Positions 4,610 to 60,603 of a DNA stretch of 64,000 bases are shown here, one piece after another; position 1 is the stretch's first letter, and each line of letters opens with the position of its first letter. The notes under the pieces were generated by a model. The model saw only the letters and a program-made list of their open reading frames with translations. It ran no database searches and was not told the origin of the DNA. This DNA comes from Natronolimnohabitans sp. A-GB9. GTDB taxonomy: Archaea > Halobacteriota > Halobacteria > Halobacteriales > Natrialbaceae. Position numbers and translations under genes: made by a program. The DNA lies in NCBI RefSeq assembly GCF_030848565.1, contig NZ_JAVDDV010000003.1, positions 248,001 to 312,000 on the forward strand, read 5' to 3'.

Positions 4610-4716
4610 ATGCTGTTTGACAGCGCGATTCGAGGATCGGTCACGCGACTGTGGCCGTCCCGCGGAGACGCCGCGAATTCGCGACCGACGGGTCGTTGAC
4701 TGCTGTCCGACAGGTA
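4610..4716. repeat. Family A palindromic element, copy A1
   Basis: A 107-bp element related to copies at 25791, 31355 and 39436. It has near-matching ends (TGCTGTTTGACAGC on the left, TGCTGTCCGACAG on the right) and a shared core GGTCGCGAATTCGCGGC read on the minus strand. Same orientation as the 25791 copy and opposite to the other two. Its right end abuts the truncated methyltransferase-like remnant, so the insertion may have removed the end of that gene. No coding capacity. Confidence 0.75.
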
Positions 4717-5623: not shown

Positions 5624-6121
5624 GTGAGCATTTTTGACACGATATATAATAAAAAGCCATCTATAAATTTGCTGAGATAGTTGGAGGGTTAACCAATCAT
5701 GCTTCAGTTAGCGATCTCTCATCGTTAACGGTGATTGTAATGAGGAACCAACAAATAGTCAGCGGCCGGAGTTCAATATACCCGGTGTAGGACCCTACTC
5801 GACCACAAATCAAGGTTTTCCAGAAGTAGTCGCCTTTGCCCTGGGCGGTGCGTTGGTGCTGGATCGGCACTCGCTCGACAAGCGGGATGGACAACAGCCA
5901 GTACACACCCGATCGCGTCCCGACGCCTGTCACCGAACGCGACAGCGTCTCGAGTGCGATCGGTGTGTGCATCGTTTTGTCCGGCAGTATGAATAGTTCA
6001 TTCGGCACAGATTGCCCGAAACAGTCGAGCAGAACCGTCGATTCGAGTACCACGACTCGAGAGCTGCGAGTCACACGTCGGCTGGACCTTCGCCGGAGTC
6101 TCGCCTCAGAGGCGAGCATGC
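5624..6121. other. Gene-poor intergenic region
   Basis: About 500 bp lacking a convincing gene. The minus frame through 5697-6125 is open, but half of it reads the palindromic element at 5886-5990 and codon use is erratic. The segment around 5800-5870 may be debris from an older gene. At 6100-6116 a 7-bp stem hairpin (CTCGCCT-CAG-AGGCGAG) sits just past the 3' end of the small membrane gene and could act as a terminator for it. Confidence 0.4.
5886..5990. repeat. Family A variant element, copy A6
   Basis: About 105 bp ending TTTTGTCCGGCAGTAT at 5975-5990. The stretch TCGAGTGCGATCGGTGTGTG next to it is the reverse complement of the element at 60186-60265. The left end (GATGGACAACAGCCAGTAC) is a decayed version of the partner terminus. 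It is about 25 bp longer than the 60186 copy because of an extra internal segment. Sits in gene-poor sequence. Confidence 0.65.
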
Positions 6122-11490: not shown

Positions 11491-11570
11491 TACGGATTGC
11501 TGTACCGATGAACCGGTGAAACGATACGCGGGTCGTGGTTTCACCGGGAAATCGGTACAGGGGACCGTCT
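11490..11570. repeat. Family B palindromic element B1 between convergent genes
   Basis: An 81-bp element with ends ATACGGATTGCTGTACCGAT and ATCGGTACAGGGGACCGTCT, plus an inner repeat CCGGTGAAAC ... GTTTCACCGG that forms a 10-bp stem. It occupies the full space between two convergent genes, and the stop codons of both (11488-11490 plus, 11570-11572 minus) overlap its edges. Likely a bidirectional transcription stop or a mobile palindromic repeat. Confidence 0.8.
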
Positions 11571-19345: not shown

Positions 19346-19422
19346 TACGGTCTCCTGTCGTCACTGACCGCCGATCGCCAGAACGGGGCCGGCGATCGGC
19401 GGTAACTAGTTACAGCAGTTGT
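19345..19422. repeat. Family B element B4
   Basis: About 78 bp. The left terminus ATACGGTCTCCTGTCG sits at the stop codon of the winged-helix gene. The stem-forming core GCCGATCGCC ... GGCGATCGGC is the same module as in B3, and the right end GTTACAGCAGTTG is degenerate. The next gene on the opposite strand ends about 39 bp further on. Confidence 0.7.
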
Positions 19423-19460
19423 TGGAACGGGCGAGAAAAGAGTCGGGCGTCGTCGAGGAC

Positions 19461-25314: not shown

Positions 25315-25791
25315 GTGATCCTCGTCATCTGCGGGCCCCCGGGTGCAGGCAAGACCACGATCGCCGAGGAACTTCGCCGGCGACTCGAGGCCCGCGGCGA
25401 ATCCGTCCGGCTACATCACTCCGACGACTTCTCGAGTCGGACCTACGAGCAACTGTACGAGCGAGCGAGCGACGATCCCGAGGACGCGATCACGATCGTC
25501 GACGGAACGTTCTACCGGCGCACGTGGCAGGTCCAGTTTCGGACCCTCGAGTCGCGGACGGACGTTCGGTTCGTCTACGTCACGGCCGATCTCGAGACCT
25601 GCCTCGAGCGCAATCGGTCGCGGGCGGATTCGATCGACGAACAGGGCGTTCACGTCGTCTATCGGGAGTTCGACGCGCCCGAGGACGCCCTCGAGATCGA
25701 CACCGACGAGTACGACGTCGCGGCGGCAGTCGACGAAATCGTCGACGCGCTCGAGTCGTGGGGCTGGATCGCTACCGACAGTAACAGGTGA
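25315..25791 (+). CDS. P-loop kinase (adenylylsulfate-kinase / L-seryl-tRNA kinase-like)
   Basis: A 158-residue nucleotide kinase from GTG 25315 (MILVICGPPGAGKTTIAEEL). Walker A GPPGAGKT lies at residues 7-14. The segment LHHSDDFSS gives a DxD-like catalytic site, IVDGTFYRRTWQ follows, and VYVTADLETCLERNRSR provides a lid with Arg residues. The size and motif order fit the zeta-toxin, APS-kinase and PSTK superfamily. Substrate cannot be stated. The alternative GTG at 25267 lies in element C2 and adds residues unlike the family. The stop TGA (25789-25791) leads straight into element A2. Confidence 0.75.
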   Translation: MILVICGPPGAGKTTIAEELRRRLEARGESVRLHHSDDFSSRTYEQLYERASDDPEDAITIVDGTFYRRTWQVQFRTLESRTDVRFVYVTADLETCLERNRSRADSIDEQGVHVVYREFDAPEDALEIDTDEYDVAAAVDEIVDALESWGWIATDSNR

Positions 25792-25898
25792 TACTGTCAG
25801 ACAGCACGATTCGACGATCGGTCGCGCGACTGCGGCCGTCCTCACGGGGACGTCGCGAATTCGCGACCGACTGCTCACTGACTGCTAGCCAAGAGTAT
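25791..25898. repeat. Family A palindromic element A2
   Basis: 108 bp. The left terminus ATACTGTCAGACAGCA begins at the kinase stop codon, and the core GGACGTCGCGAATTCGCGACC is nearly identical to A1. The right terminus TGCTAGCCAAGAGTAT is decayed. Same orientation as A1. Confidence 0.75.
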
Positions 25899-25926
25899 GA
25901 AAGCCGGGCAGTCACGACTCGAGCGG

Positions 25927-30673: not shown

Positions 30674-31237
30674 ATGTGGCCCTGGGGACATTTCGGCGTC
30701 GCGTATCTCCTGTACTCGTTGTACGCTCGTGGACGGTTTCGACGACCGCCGGGGCCCGAGGCCGCACTCGCGGTACTCGTCGGCTCGCAACTCGCCGATC
30801 TGATCGACAAACCGCTCGCCTGGGGGCTCGGAGTTCTGCCCGGCGGACGAACGCTCGCTCACTCCCTGCTGTTTGCCGCCGTCGTGATCGTCGTCGCGTA
30901 TGCCGTTGGATTCGCCTACAACCGTGTCGAGACGGCGACCGCGTTCGTCATCGCACACCTGTCTCACCTCCTGGCGGACCTGCCGCCACGGCTTCTCCTC
31001 GGCTATCCCTTCGGCTCCGAATTTCTGTTCTGGCCGTTTCTGCCCCATCCGACGTTCGGGTACAACGAGCGGCTCTTCGAACCGCCGGCAGTCGTCGAAG
31101 CGGTCGTCACTCCGTTTACTGACCCGCTGGTGTTCTTTCTGTTCGACGTGTCGCTGTTCGTCGTGGGGGTCGTGCTCTGGTATATCGACGGCTGTCCGGG
31201 ACTTCGATACGTGACGTCGCGGTTCGGCTCGGCGTGA
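30674..31237 (+). CDS. YdjM/DUF457-type membrane-bound metal-dependent hydrolase
   Basis: A 187-residue membrane protein with the layout of the YdjM/LexA-regulated hydrolase family. The opening MWPWGHFGVAYLLYSLY carries the first His, GSQLADLIDKPLAW an Asp motif, GGRTLAHSLLF a second His, and AHLSHLLADLPPR the H-x2-H-x2-D type motif. A PHPTFGYNE loop and a last hydrophobic helix near 155-175 complete the protein. The conserved His and Asp residues lie at membrane borders and could bind a metal. The enzymatic role is not proven for the family. The stop TGA (31235-31237) opens element B3. Confidence 0.82.
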   Translation: MWPWGHFGVAYLLYSLYARGRFRRPPGPEAALAVLVGSQLADLIDKPLAWGLGVLPGGRTLAHSLLFAAVVIVVAYAVGFAYNRVETATAFVIAHLSHLLADLPPRLLLGYPFGSEFLFWPFLPHPTFGYNERLFEPPAVVEAVVTPFTDPLVFFLFDVSLFVVGVVLWYIDGCPGLRYVTSRFGSA

Positions 31238-31317
31238 TACGGACTGCTGTACCGAGTGGCCGCCGATCGCCAGGGTGGGGTCGGCGATCAGCGGGACGTG
31301 ACGACAGGAGATCGTAT
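31237..31317. repeat. Family B element B3
   Basis: 81 bp. Left terminus ATACGGACTGCTGTACCGAG at the stop of the YdjM-like gene; core GCCGATCGCCAGGG ... GTCGGCGATCAGC. The right terminus CGACAGGAGATCGTAT belongs to the sub-type seen at B4 and near 54890. Element A3 follows 37 bp further on, so the two families sit side by side. Confidence 0.72.
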
Positions 31318-31354
31318 GAACGGACGATCGACCATCGGTTCCGACACGACTGTG

Positions 31355-31464
31355 ATACTGCCGGACAGCAGTCAGTAACCCGTCGGTCGCGAATCCGCGG
31401 CCGTCACCGTCGGGAACGGCCGCAGCCGTGCGACCGATCGGTGAATCGTGCTGTCCGGCAGTAT
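31355..31464. repeat. Family A palindromic element A3
   Basis: 110 bp with perfect 16-bp terminal inverted repeats ATACTGCCGGACAGCA / TGCTGTCCGGCAGTAT and the core GGTCGCGAATCCGCGGCCG. Orientation opposite to A1/A2. Compared with A4 the ends differ at one position on both sides in a way that keeps them complementary. Confidence 0.85.
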
Positions 31465-31737
31465 GAGCCATCTCGTGTGTCGACGACTCCCGTCTGCTGG
31501 TTCACGTTCTCGTCAAATACCTCGCTGCAAACGATCGTGAATAGTGAAAACAGTGCCCATTAATCGGGAGTACGAATTCCGCTGTCGAGACGGCAGTAGC
31601 CACACCACCGTTCGGTGATGTACTCATTCGAACGGACATACCCACCCCGTAAAACCGTTCGACGGACGGTTTCGAACCGATTGAACGGTTCGAACGAAGG
31701 TCAGTCTTTTTAGTATGTTCGCTCTAACGAAGGGATA
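31465..31737. promoter_or_regulatory. Upstream region of the secreted coiled-coil gene
   Basis: No gene seen. Between 31655 and 31700 there is a cluster of related words (AAACCGTTCGA, GGTTTCGAACCG, GAACGGTTCGAAC) forming several overlapping inverted repeats around TTCGAA, possibly an operator array. TCTTTTTAGT at 31704-31713 is a TATA-like box about 26 bases before the ATG at 31738. Confidence 0.45.
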
Positions 31738-35742: not shown

Positions 35743-36738
35743 ATGACCGACGCGTTCGACCTCGAGATCCGCCGTGCGACACACGACGACTACGAGGCCG
35801 TCGTCGAATTCACCAGCGACATCTGGCGCGACCGCGGCGGCGACTACATCCCCGATATCTACCATGACTGGCTCGAGGACGACGACGAGGAAGGGCGGAA
35901 GACCTTCCTCGCGACGGTCGACGGCGAGGCCGCAGGTATCGTCCAGGCGGTGATGGTAAGCGACGACGAGGCCTGGTTTCAGGGAATGCGCGTCGCGGCC
36001 GAACACCGGCGCAAAGGCGTCAGCCACCGGCTCAACGAAGCCTGTTTCGACTGGGCCCGCAGGCGAGGCGCGACGATCGGTCGCGTCATGATCTTCTCGT
36101 GGAACCAGGCCTCGCTGGGCGCCGCGCGAACCGGCGGCTTCGAGCCCATCACCGAGTTTCGCTTTGCCCATCCCGATCCCGACCCGGACGCCGAGAGACC
36201 GGTCTCGGTCTCGGTCTCGAGCGATCCCGCGATCGCCTGGCGCTACTGGACCCACAGCGACGCACGCGAGCACCTGTCCGGTCTTGGACTGGCCCCAGAA
36301 GAGTCGTGGGCCGTCCGGGAGCTCACGCGCGCGGATTTCGAGCAGTTCGCCGACGAGAGGGTCGTCTTCGCCGTCGCGAGCGAAACAGGGCCCGCTGGCG
36401 CGGCCTACCGGTGTCGGACGTTCGAACGGACGGTCGACGCCGACGAGGTCGACGATCCCGAGCAGCCGGACTCGAACGCCGAATCGGCGCCGGAGACCGA
36501 GACGGTCGCCGAGTACGGGATCGCCGCGTGGGACGGCATCGACGCTGCCCGCTCGCTGTTCGCGGCGATCGCCCGCGACGCCGCCGACTGCGGCGCCGAC
36601 ACGACCCGGGTGCTGATCCCCGAAACCGCTCGAACGGTCAGTGACGTCCCGTGTGTCGGCGTCGAGATCGCCGAGGAGCCCGACTTCGTGCTCGGGATCG
36701 ATCCGACGGCGGCGAGTGACCGAATCGAAAGATCGTGA
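35743..36738 (+). CDS. GNAT-family N-acetyltransferase
   Basis: A 331-residue protein with an N-terminal GNAT domain (about 1-150). The acetyl-CoA pyrophosphate-binding loop is in MRVAAEHRRKGVSHRLNEACFDWARRRG (about 82-110), and FSWNQASLGAARTGGFEP is the usual late GNAT segment. The C-terminal half (about 160-331) looks like a second, more diverged GNAT-like unit, as in mycothiol-synthase-type double-domain acetyltransferases. Substrate unknown. The start at 35743 is preferred to 35725, which adds MPNTRA. Stop TGA (36736-36738) is followed by GACGATACTTCCGGACAACACG, a solo family A end. Confidence 0.82.
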   Translation: MTDAFDLEIRRATHDDYEAVVEFTSDIWRDRGGDYIPDIYHDWLEDDDEEGRKTFLATVDGEAAGIVQAVMVSDDEAWFQGMRVAAEHRRKGVSHRLNEACFDWARRRGATIGRVMIFSWNQASLGAARTGGFEPITEFRFAHPDPDPDAERPVSVSVSSDPAIAWRYWTHSDAREHLSGLGLAPEESWAVRELTRADFEQFADERVVFAVASETGPAGAAYRCRTFERTVDADEVDDPEQPDSNAESAPETETVAEYGIAAWDGIDAARSLFAAIARDAADCGADTTRVLIPETARTVSDVPCVGVEIAEEPDFVLGIDPTAASDRIERS

Positions 36739-36742
36739 GACG

Positions 36743-36763
36743 ATACTTCCGGACAACACGATA
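36743..36763. repeat. Solo family A terminus
   Basis: ATACTTCCGGACAACACGAT directly behind the acetyltransferase gene matches the left terminus of element A5 (ATACTGCCGGACAACACGAT) at all but one base. No right partner is seen before the next ATG at 36795, so this is a remnant or a half element. Confidence 0.5.
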
Positions 36764-38464: not shown

Positions 38465-39436
38465 GTGAGTTCCGACTCCGAGACGCCGACGGTTGCGATC
38501 GCCTGCCAAGGCGGTGGGAGCCACACCGCCTTCACCGCGGGCGTTCTCGACCGGCTGCTGGGCGATCCCACCTTCGAGCGCGAGGTCGACCTCGTCGGCT
38601 TCAGTGGCACCTCCGGCGGTGCGGTCTGTGCGCTGCTCGCGTGGTACGGGCGCGAACACCCCGACGAAACGCCCGGCGAGTTACTCGCCGACTACTGGGC
38701 CGATCTGGCCGCCGAGGAGCCGTTCGAACGGATGGTCAACGGGGTCGTTCGCTGGACGAGCCAACTCGAGCGCATGGGCGTTCCCCTCCCCGACGTCAGC
38801 CCGTACAACTCGCCGGCAGCGAGTTGGGGGCGCCGGGAGTTTCTCGCCTCTCTCGAGCGCCACGTCGACTTCGAGGCGATCCCCGGCCTGCTCGAGGGCG
38901 ACGAGCCGGCGCTGTTGATCAGCGCGATCGACGTGCTCACCGGCGAGTTCGAGCTGTTCCGCGAGGACGAACTCTCCCCGGAGGCGATTCTGGCGTCGGC
39001 CGCGATCCCCTACGTTTTCCGGGCGGTGGAAGTCGACGGCAGCTACTACTGGGACGGGCTGTTCTCGAAGAACCCGCCGGTCAAGGACTTCGTGACGAAC
39101 CGCGAGACGCCCGACCCCGACGAAGTCTGGGTGATCAAGATCAACCCCGAGCGACGGGACCGTGTGCCGACGTCGGCCGACGGGATCGCCGACCGGCGCA
39201 ACGAGCTGTCCGGGAACAAGGCGCTAAACGCCGAGATCAGCTTCGTCGAGCACGTTAACGAGTGGATCGAGGCGGGATATCTCCCCGAGAAGTTTACTCA
39301 CACCGAGATCGAACGGATCCGGTTCGGTCGTCCGGATCTGCACTGGCGGACGAAACTCGAGCGCGATCCCGACTTCGTCGAGAAGCTGTACGCCGACGGC
39401 GAGGCGGCGGCCGAGACGTTTCTCGACGAGCGATGA
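38465..39436 (+). CDS. Patatin-like phospholipase
   Basis: A 323-residue patatin-fold lipid acyl hydrolase starting at GTG 38465. Oxyanion loop CQGGGSHTAFTAG lies at 14-26, the nucleophile motif GFSGTSGGAV at 45-54 with Ser about 50, and the dyad Asp in YYWDGLFSKNPP near 197. These are the Ser-Asp dyad elements of patatins, which hydrolyse phospholipids or other esters without a His. There is no signal peptide, so it is cytosolic and may act on archaeal or ingested lipids. The stop TGA (39434-39436) is also the first base set of element A4. Confidence 0.87.
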   Translation: MSSDSETPTVAIACQGGGSHTAFTAGVLDRLLGDPTFEREVDLVGFSGTSGGAVCALLAWYGREHPDETPGELLADYWADLAAEEPFERMVNGVVRWTSQLERMGVPLPDVSPYNSPAASWGRREFLASLERHVDFEAIPGLLEGDEPALLISAIDVLTGEFELFREDELSPEAILASAAIPYVFRAVEVDGSYYWDGLFSKNPPVKDFVTNRETPDPDEVWVIKINPERRDRVPTSADGIADRRNELSGNKALNAEISFVEHVNEWIEAGYLPEKFTHTEIERIRFGRPDLHWRTKLERDPDFVEKLYADGEAAAETFLDER

Positions 39437-39544
39437 TACTGTCGGACAGCAGTCAGTGACCCGTCGGTCGCGAATTCGCGGCCGTCACCGTTGGAGACGG
39501 CCGCAGTAGTGCGACCGACGGTGAATCGTGCTGTCCGACAGTAT
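39436..39544. repeat. Family A palindromic element A4 (best copy)
   Basis: 109 bp with perfect 16-bp terminal inverted repeats ATACTGTCGGACAGCA / TGCTGTCCGACAGTAT. Each terminus is itself palindromic (CTGTC-G-GACAG). The core GGTCGCGAATTCGCGGCCG pairs with CGGCCGCAGTAGTGCGACCG. Begins at the stop codon of the patatin gene and ends 53 bp before the K+ channel ATG. No coding capacity. Confidence 0.88.
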
Positions 39545-39596
39545 GAGAACGTTCAGAGACGGAGCCGTTAACTGATCCCGTCGCGCATCGGAGTAT

Positions 39597-49961: not shown

Positions 49962-50267
49962 ATGACGGAACGAAGGATCAGCGAGTCCCCAGGATGCGAG
50001 TTCGAACGGCGTATCCAGTACGAACGAGCCACGGACGAACCGCCGAGTATCGCCACCGCAATGGCGCTGGCACAGTACTTCGACGACGACGTCGAAGCCA
50101 CCAGCGTACGGCTGTACGATTACGTCGATCCGGACGCACTCGACGCCCTGTTTGCGGAGACCAACAGGGGAGCGAGTCGCACGACGGGAACCGTCGAGTT
50201 CCAGGTCGAAGACGCGACCGTCCGAGTTACGCCCGATCGTGTAGAGGTGAGTCCGAACAACGGCTGA
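49962..50267 (+). CDS. HalOD1 output-domain protein (101 aa)
   Basis: A 101-residue HalOD1 domain protein. PPSIATAMALAQYFDDDVEATSVRLYDYVDPDALDALF and GTVEFQVEDATVRVTPDRVEV form the small alpha/beta domain common in haloarchaeal signalling output proteins. No partner domain is attached. Stop TGA (50265-50267) is followed by TTCTGTCGGACGGAACGAT, one base different in spacing from the family A left end, so it probably ends in a decayed element. Confidence 0.8.
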   Translation: MTERRISESPGCEFERRIQYERATDEPPSIATAMALAQYFDDDVEATSVRLYDYVDPDALDALFAETNRGASRTTGTVEFQVEDATVRVTPDRVEVSPNNG

Positions 50268-50290
50268 TTCTGTCGGACGGAACGATACTC
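50268..50290. repeat. Decayed family A terminus
   Basis: TGATTCTGTCGGACGGAACG (50265 onward) resembles the left end TGATACTGTCAGACAGCACG of copy A2. The rest of the gap to 50387 shows only weak similarity (GACCGGTCGCAG), so this is a remnant or very diverged copy. Confidence 0.4.
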
Positions 50291-53351: not shown

Positions 53352-53367
53352 TGTTGTCCGACAGTAT
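53352..53367. repeat. Family A terminus before a start-less gene
   Basis: TGTTGTCCGACAGTAT, the family A right end (as in A4 and A5), 33 bp ahead of the first codon of the membrane gene that lacks a start. A second copy of the word, ACTGTCCGGCGG, follows at once. Confidence 0.5.
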
Positions 53368-53399
53368 TACTGTCCGGCGGCCGTCGAACCGATCGGTGA

Positions 53400-53858
53400 G
53401 CGTTCATCTACTCGAAACATCACGCCCTTCTCTCGCTCGTTGTCGCCGGCGTTCTCGTTTCCGTTCTCCCACCCGTTACCGTTGCCGGCCACACCGTTCC
53501 CGCCGTCGCCCTCGTCGTCTACGGCACTGCAGTCGGCGTTCTCGTCGACCTCGATCACTTCCTCATCGCCCGTCTCGAGACCGGAAACTGGGATGCCGTC
53601 CGGTTCTGTCTCGCTAACCCAGCGGCAGTCGTCGTCGACCAGCGACGGATCTTCGATCGCGGCGACGTCGGCGCCCTCTCGCGACTGTTGAGTCATCTTC
53701 TCATCGTCGGCATCGTCGTCCCAGCCGTCGCACTCTCGAGTCCCCCGCTTGCGATCCTCACCGGCGGAGTGCTCTACGTCCACCTCGTCAGTGACGTCGC
53801 CTGGGACATCAGGCGACTGGATCGGGCCGCCGATGTCTCCGTAGACGAGGTCATATAG
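53400..53858 (+). pseudogene. Membrane-bound hydrolase-like gene without a start codon
   Basis: An open frame of 152 codons encodes a hydrophobic protein. It reads FIYSKHHALLSLVVAGVLVSV, VVYGTAVGVLVDLDHFLIARL (DxDH motif), GDVGALSRLLSHLLIVGIVV and VLYVHLVSDVAWDIRRLD. This strongly resembles small haloarchaeal YdjM/DUF457-related membrane proteins. A TGA precedes the first codon (GCG), and no ATG, GTG or TTG occurs before the middle of the frame, so normal initiation is impossible. A family A terminus lies just upstream, and loss of the start by element insertion or excision is likely. A base error in GCG (for ATG) is the alternative. The antisense acidic frame is a shadow. Confidence 0.55.
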
Positions 53859-58986: not shown

Positions 58987-60186
58987 ATGGAATTCGGTCT
59001 CACCGACGAGCAAGCGCAAATCCGTGACGAGGTCGCCCGGTTCGCCGAGAACGAAATCGTTCCGGTCGCCGAAGAGTACGACACGGAAGAGAAGTACCCA
59101 CACGACGTCGTCGACAAAGCCGCCGAGATGGGACTGACCGGCCCGTACATTCCGATCGAGTACGGCGGCGCTGGCTACTCCATCCTCGATACCGCGATCA
59201 TCACCGAGGAGTTGTTCTCCTACGACCCAGGAATCGCGCTCTCGATCGTCTCGGCGTCGTTCGGCTGTGAGGCGATCATGAACTTCGGGACCGAAGACCA
59301 GAAAGAGCGGTTCCTCGAGCCAGTCGCACTCGGCGAGAAGGTCTCCGGTGCCGCGATCTCCGAACCCGACACTGGATCGGACGTCTCCTCGGTCTCGACG
59401 CGTGCCGAGAAACGCGAGGCCCAAGACGGCGCGGAACTGAGCGGCGCAGCCGCGGAGAAAGACGGCGACGAATGGGTGATAAACGGCACCAAGATGTGGA
59501 TCACCAACGGGACCGTCGCCGACTTCCTCGTCGTGCTCTGTGAGACGAATCCCGACGCCGAGGGCCGCTACAACGGCTTCAGCCAGATCATCGTCGAGAC
59601 CGACCGCGACGGCGTCAACACGGAGAAGATCACCGGCAAGCTCGGGATCCGCGCTTCCGACACCGCCGAAGTCGTCTTCGACGACGTCCGCGTCCCCGAG
59701 GAGAACCTCGTCGGTACCAGAGACGCCGCGTTCATGCAACAGATGCAGTTCTTCGACGAGACCCGCACCGCAGTCGCCGCACAGGGCGTCGGCATCGCAA
59801 AGGGCGCGACGCGTGCCGCCCTCGAGTACGCCCAGGACCGCGAACAGTTCGGCCAGTCGATCAGCGAGTTCCAGGCCATCCAGCACAAACTCGCCGACAT
59901 GGAGACTCGGACCGAAGCCGCCCGTAACCTGACCTACAAGGCCGCCTGGAACGTCGACCAGGGCAAGGACATCACGAAGCTCGCCTCGATGGCCAAGGAG
60001 TACGCCTCGCGTGTGGCCGTCGACGTCGCCGACGAGGCCGTCCAGATCCACGGCGGCGCCGGCTACGTCAACGACTTCCCCGTCGAGCGGCTCTACCGCG
60101 ACGCCAAGATCACGCAGATCTACGAGGGCACCACCGAGATCCAGAAGAACATCATCGCTCGCGAGATGCTCGGCAAGGGCTTCTAA
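58987..60186 (+). CDS. Acyl-CoA dehydrogenase 2
   Basis: A 399-residue acyl-CoA dehydrogenase starting [80 protein letters not shown] and [37 protein letters not shown] are family hallmarks, with the catalytic Glu in the YEGTTE segment. Oxidises acyl-CoA to trans-2-enoyl-CoA and passes electrons to ETF. A short insert (about 140-158, [17 protein letters not shown]) before EWVINGTK is unusual. The ATG at 58987 was chosen because the upstream extension is not conserved-like. Stop TAA (60184-60186) is followed by family A element A5. Confidence 0.94.
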
Positions 60187-60265
60187 TACTGCCGGACAAC
60201 ACGATGCACACACCGATCGCACTCGAGACGCGATTGGGTGGGTAGTGACTGTTGTCAGGTAGTAT
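60186..60265. repeat. Family A short variant, copy A5
   Basis: 80 bp with ends ATACTGCCGGACAACA and TGTTGTCAGGTAGTAT and the internal word CACCGATCGCACTCGAGACG shared (inverted) with copy A6 at 5886-5990. Begins at the acyl-CoA dehydrogenase stop codon. Confidence 0.75.
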
Positions 60266-60603
60266 AACCACCGCTTGTCCAGCTGAGGCATAGCCGACCC
60301 TCGCTTTGCTTTCCGTTTTCGTTCTGTTCGGGCACTCGACTCGCAGCCGTGTGGATCGACGGTGTCGTGTCTCATCGGTAGAACGGCTATAGTAGCCACT
60401 GCAAGTCATTGCACACCTGATCGCCAGACGGATCGGCGATCAGTGTGTAAACCGTTGCAGTTGTTACTATAGAAATCGCCGAGTCGTCCCTCGATCGTCG
60501 GAGCGGCTATCGAGGTGATGTACGGTTCCCGAGCGGAAATTCGGTGGGACGTGTCGGGTTCACAACACCGGCGACGTACCGGTTTCCACCGGGCGCGTCG
60601 CTC
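60266..60603. other. Intergenic region without gene
   Basis: Between element A5 and the end of the gamma-glutamyltransferase gene. Apart from palindromic element C1 (60387-60472) nothing recognisable is present. Reading frames here are short and without haloarchaeal codon bias. Confidence 0.5.
60387..60472. repeat. Family C palindromic element C1
   Basis: 86 bp. Ends CTATAGTAGCCACTGCAA and TTGCAGTTGTTACTATAG are inverted repeats of each other with two mismatches. The inner stem TGATCGCC ... GGCGATCA is the same core module as in family B copies B3 and B4. Single complete copy in this window, plus a diverged relative at 25204-25279. Confidence 0.75.

Follow-up and report, generated by a model that had tools for sequence, protein, structure and literature searches.

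A palindromic repeat of about 108 bp directly follows the gene at 38465-39436 in the window, by which we mean the whole 64,000-nucleotide stretch analyzed (GC content about 64%). The question raised by this locus is what kind of element the repeat is, and whether its two ends have been kept matched through a folded form. A sequence-only reading had called it MITE-like, and had taken matching changes in the ends as a sign of selection on, or copying through, a fold. We find that it very probably belongs to a family of MITE-type DNA transposons that are non-autonomous, insert at TNA, duplicate these 3 bp and accumulate at stop codons.

Copies in the Window

All copies named in the sequence-only reading were present, including four full-length elements of family A, two in each orientation. 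Element A4 (107 bp, plus strand) has perfectly inverted ends, TACTGTCGGACAGCA and TGCTGTCCGACAGTA, and the 16-bp inverted arms described for it are indeed perfect. Its borders had been set at 39436-39544; the element proper spans 39437..39543 and has a TGA on each side, the left one (39434..39436) being the stop codon of the gene at 38465-39436 and the right one lying at 39544-39546. Elements of the family start with TACTG and end with CAGTA, and the outermost A/T of the arms as first read lies outside the element because it falls in the 3-bp TNA target duplication. Element A3 (108 bp, 31356..31463, plus strand) carries the matching change noticed before, C/G at position 5 of its two ends, and is flanked by TGA at 31353-31355 and 31464-31466. 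Element A2 (106 bp, 25792..25897, minus strand) has a decayed right end and lies between TGA at 25789-25791, the stop codon of the gene at 25315-25791, and TGA at 25898-25900. Element A1 (4611..4715, minus strand) is decayed and its duplication is no longer present.

The copy at 60186 had been regarded as a shorter variant of family A. It is short (78 bp, 60187..60264, plus strand), but belongs to a sibling family, B; its TAA duplication is found at 60184-60186, the stop codon of the gene at 58987-60186, and at 60265-60267. The copy at 5886, placed in the same class, is instead a decayed family B element of roughly full length (5882..5989, minus strand), with one end decayed and TGA (5990-5992) outside the intact end. 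Three solo ends were located. The one at 53352..53366 (minus strand) is flanked by TTA at 53367-53369, which is the TAA stop codon of the minus-strand gene at 53367-53783. The two others are decayed and lie on the plus strand, at 50268..50282, directly 3' of the TGA stop codon of the gene at 49962-50267, and at 36744..36758, a few bases beyond the stop codon of the gene at 35743-36738.

Family Size and Kinds of Element

The genome scanned is haloarchaeal and comprises 4.30 Mb in 72 contigs. The 15-bp end TACTGNCGGACANCA, with at most one mismatch, had 527 matches (270 and 257 for the two strands) vs. 3 for the reversed control (1 and 2), so this search, which had been proposed as a check, did not find the family to be one of few copies. 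Within the window the 16-mer first read, ATACTGTCGGACAGCA, had 13 matches with up to three mismatches, compared to 0.28 expected from shuffled sequences. In 2.06 Mb, taken in stretches from the same genome, we identified 186 end pairs, spaced by 35-220 bp, besides 79 solo ends of the family. At least 40 full-length copies resemble A4 at 88-100%.

The conserved end, TACTGTCGGACAGCA, is itself a near-palindrome and caps several palindromic, gene-free interiors. Family A comprises elements of 107-108 bp in three subfamilies, with a palindromic interior. Family B, which is capped by the same end, has a form of about 108 bp and one of 78 bp, and the family A end is found on further forms of 78, 75, and 53-54 bp. 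Conservation thus resides in the end, which is what recognition by an enzyme would lead one to expect. Terminal inverted repeats were found both in the window and in the genome pairs, and the elements are short (53-108 bp), lack a transposase gene and have about 500 ends genome-wide.

Each end (39437-39451 and others) reads as a near-perfect palindrome, TACTGTC-G-GACAGCA, and full palindromic ends, TACTGTCGGACAGTA, are present in genomes G125 (Halobellus) and G126 (YIM A00010). The near-palindromic form suggests binding of each end by a dimer.

Target Site Duplication, Nesting, and Empty Sites

We gathered 98 inverted pairs irrespective of their flanks. Of the 48 that were flanked by TNA, 43 had the identical N on both sides, and no duplication longer than 3 bp was seen among the 98. 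In the 2.06-Mb set the triplet was identical in 92 of 101 TNA-flanked pairs (TGA 42, TCA 31, TTA 12, TAA 7); the pairing score used there favored duplications, and 43/48 is the unbiased figure. The reconstructed target is TNA, preferably as S-TNA-S. The same duplication of fixed length was observed in nested copies, where one family B copy is split by a family A copy at TGA and two family A copies are split by elements of a second family, X, at TCA.

Empty orthologous sites were found at three positions in the sister species G098, the one congener compared, with a stop codon in place at each. At 39434-39436 and 25789-25791 the stop codon is TGA here and TAA at the end of the G098 gene, while at 60184-60186 it is TAA in both species, the G098 gene ending TTC TAA; the element is absent from all three. 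The junctions in G098 are clear to the single base at the stop codon and diverged downstream. Those of loci L095 and L136, compared with the genome under study, were diverged and gave no single-base detail. No recent insertion polymorphism was seen in the comparison with this congener. A TA duplication with shifted borders, as for IS630-like elements, was rejected, since the same N is present on both sides and the empty sites hold a single TNA. Shared inverted ends, absence of genes, hundreds of copies, a 3-bp duplication, nesting and empty sites all agree with the MITE-like nature first proposed, and the checks suggested for it, target duplication and empty sites, were borne out.

Abundance, palindromic form and intergenic location would also fit the copying of a REP/BIME-like element by a RAYT (IS200/IS605-type Y1) transposase. 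IS200/IS605-type transposition is not known to make a target duplication. IS605-type elements are described as never generating one (PMC10264941). The ends of family A are transposon borders with a clean 3-bp TNA duplication at both ends, unlike those of the abundant intergenic palindromes of the REP/BIME kind; on the strength of this duplication the REP/RAYT reading was rejected, and we regard it as extremely improbable.

Paired End Changes and the Predicted Fold

Position 5 was concordant between the two ends in 79 of 95 aligned full-length copies (T-A 48, C-G 30, G-C 1), and the two ends disagreed in the other 16. A mismatched end at position 6, with C opposite A, is found in 26 copies; of the three subfamilies that were compared, these copies form the tightest. 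Changes in the stem were counted on a tree built from element interiors only. There were 404 single-side changes and 26 double changes; 13 of the latter were complementary, six of them at position 5. Slid controls gave 9-17 double changes compared to the 26 observed, and outside positions 5 and 13 complementary double changes in the stem hardly occur. Where nearest neighbors differed in their left end, both ends had switched together in 12 of 27 pairs.

Most of the pattern at position 5 reflects subfamily inheritance, with a residual. With a successful mismatched subfamily of 26 copies and 404 single changes against 13 complementary ones, most of the evidence does not support the claim that co-varying ends reveal selection on the fold, or copying through it.

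The matching of the two ends might be kept by a process in which one arm of the palindrome is corrected from the other, through repair or template switching. The concordance at position 5 exceeds the prediction from interior similarity, the 12 of 27 neighbors that differ at both ends fit such a process, and the copy C9:30593 has a private G/C pair. Along the rest of the stem, however, there is no such pattern (13 complementary doubles beside 404 single changes), and mismatched ends persist in a successful subfamily; we consider correction of this kind quite unlikely.

Stop Codon Occupancy

In 30 of 92 well-delimited copies (TGA 23, TAA 7) the duplicated TNA coincides exactly with a neighboring gene's stop codon. 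The share expected from non-coding TNA sites is 8.5%, which rises to 10.3% with weighting for target sequence (p = 5e-9). Gene ends were taken from a purpose-written gene finder based on codon usage. Each of the TNA triplets is a stop codon on one strand (TGA, TAA / TCA, TTA), and because the duplicated triplet is the stop codon, insertion into it rebuilds it. The stop codon is older than the insertion, since the upstream sequence and frame are untouched, and the sister species agrees at three sites. Insertion in the stop codon is thus without obvious harm and leaves the protein unchanged.

Most insertions were found at or near gene ends, and 22 of the 92 copies lie in divergent gaps, which have no gene end. 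The rate per TNA in tandem gaps was 3.0% at the stop codon vs. 0.2-0.7% within the 100 bp that follow; the corresponding rates in convergent gaps were 2.0% and 1.2-1.6%. Convergent gaps tolerate every position near the end and tandem gaps mainly the stop codon, from which we infer that the stop occupancy of family A is mainly a matter of survivorship. In the distant genome G126, 5 of 30 copies were at stop codons, which is not significant.

The many copies directly following stop codons could also be hairpins kept as gene-end signals, i.e., terminators or protectors of mRNA 3' ends. The predicted fold of A4 is very stable (-73.5 kcal/mol), and the concordance at position 5 would fit a maintained stem. 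Co-variation of stem pairs beyond the controls is limited to position 5, however, and the 26-copy subfamily is mismatched; the sister orthologues at the three empty sites do without the element, and divergent gaps house close to a quarter of the copies. This function is very unlikely. An Rfam search of the window gave no match.

A Second Family With TNA Duplication

The elements of family X have the ends TACGGACTGCTGT/TACGGTCTCCTGT and are mostly 77-80 bp long. We found 97 copies in the 2.06 Mb, with TGA or TCA in 94, and 48 of the 97 lie exactly at stop codons. Convergent gaps showed the excess at stop codons as well, with an odds ratio of 2.7 (p = 0.003), or 2.3 (p = 0.02) when target-matched, and given this excess family X may have some target preference for stop codons. 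The form TACGGACTGCTGT...ACAGGAGACCGTA is represented in the window by a 79-bp copy (31238..31316, plus strand), next to TGA at 31235-31237, the stop codon of the gene at 30674-31237; decayed copies lie near 11491-11570 and 19346-19424.

In both families the mobilizing enzyme, or some property of the DNA where genes end, might direct insertion into stop codons. The excess in tandem gaps survives matching for pentamers, with an odds ratio of 3.7 for family A (p = 0.003) and 5.8 for family X (p = 2e-5), and for family X the excess in convergent gaps (2.3-2.7, p = 0.003-0.02) points the same way. Against this, family A has an odds ratio of 0.75-1.4 (not significant) for stop codons where gaps are convergent, and hence no excess there, and G126 has no significant excess. 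Such targeting is rather unlikely. That the ends TAC...GTA and the 3-bp TNA duplication belong to an undescribed haloarchaeal transposition system steered to stop codons, not just tolerated there, is a reading we hold to be doubtful. On that reading the duplicated triplet would make the insertion self-repairing at the one coding position where an interruption costs nothing, and several MITE families without relation to each other could thereby have grown to hundreds of copies.

Search for a Mobilizing Enzyme

No transposase locus tested, whether from the same genome or among the loci examined in relatives, had the ends of the family; a search for a transposase with matching ends had been proposed in the sequence-only reading. 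PF13586 had no match in the genome itself, PF13340 had one sub-threshold match in 125 genomes of the taxonomic family, and PF13359 had no match in the family genomes; loci with PF01609 bear other ends. Long end-to-end pairs did not enclose a transposase. The best of them, C2:21031-22370, was rejected as a partner since it encloses an apparently ordinary host gene of the DHH type. No autonomous partner with the same ends was found in the stretches read (about half of the genome), the loci examined in relatives or the long pairs. Viral contigs with the 16-mer had lone matches without partner ends, and a phage search gave no match. Haloarchaeal plasmids bear unannotated copies of the family.

The conserved end caps palindromic, gene-free interiors of several kinds (53-108 bp), and insertion at T-N-A, preferably S-TNA-S, duplicates those 3 bp. 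We propose that the insertions were made by a cut-and-paste (DDE-type) transposase, which would act in trans on the shared end and may since have been lost or be undescribed. The family has amplified to about 500 ends here, and other haloarchaea have this end on different interiors. When an element enters the TGA or TAA that closes a gene, one duplicated copy stays in frame, and elements accumulate there; downstream positions in tandem gaps would be purged, probably because of promoters, the stop site being harmless.

The agreement between a TNA target, a 3-bp duplication and stop codons offers a simple explanation of why a densely packed genome can bear insertions by the hundred. The MITE load of this archaeon is heavy and follows a clear target rule; as no enzyme is known for it, the footprints define the missing transposase. 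Copies at stop codons may confuse the annotation of gene 3' ends and of operon spacing.

Comparison With Known Systems

A 3-bp target duplication is made by the IS5 group (IS1031, ISL2, IS427) and by PIF/Harbinger elements, with TNA or TWA in some groups. No transposase of these groups with matching ends was found in the genome or in the relatives searched, which does not favor a derivative of either; the domains searched for these groups are absent from this genome and, apart from one sub-threshold match, from 125 family genomes.

MITEs are known from haloarchaea, e.g., the HqIRS MITE families of Haloquadratum (PMC3119063) and ISH2 and MITEHsal1/2 of Halobacterium (PMC10264941). These share inverted ends, absence of a transposase gene, multiple copies and target duplication with the elements described here. 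For those that have been mapped there, a partner transposon bearing the same ends exists, whereas none was found here, and the duplications tabulated for Halobacterium are 5-10 bp (PMC10264941) vs. the 3-bp TNA of this family. The closest described archaeal elements are SMR-A of Haloquadratum walsbyi, which are about 110 bp long with prominent inverted ends, occur in tens of copies and have no mobilizer named (PMC3119063). SMR-A elements are reported to lack target duplications and to be aimed at PATE and IS605-type palindromes (PMC3119063). As described, they are set apart from family A, which has the TNA duplication and is mostly inserted at or near gene ends. In the literature searched we found no description of haloarchaeal MITEs that duplicate TNA or occupy stop codons, which is weak evidence of novelty. 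The family is ordinary in kind, and is notable for its duplication, abundance, missing enzyme and residence at stop codons.

Distribution in Relatives and Other Repeats

The same end with other interiors was found in Halobellus inordinatus (138 ends), YIM A00010 (215), Natronorubrum sulfidifaciens (97) and Salinadaptatus (125), and TNA duplications are present at the copies in relatives too. Exact ends numbered 237 here; among the 124 further genomes of the family that were searched, the maximum was 34. YIM A00010 (G126) also has a distinct related end, TACTGTCGGTCA, on further TNA-flanked elements that are nested with the first kind (L137, L254, L267-L286).

A third repeat of about 86-90 bp lies at about 60387-60475 in the window. 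Many copies of it, in part back to back, are present in the sister genome G098, and it is possibly the same as the repeat that flanks the L139 element and recurs across the genome under study. Outside the window, the genome under study carries about 138 copies, within the 2.06 Mb, of the repeat ACCCCACAAGG/GACGAACCCTT, which resembles the repeat unit of a CRISPR array.
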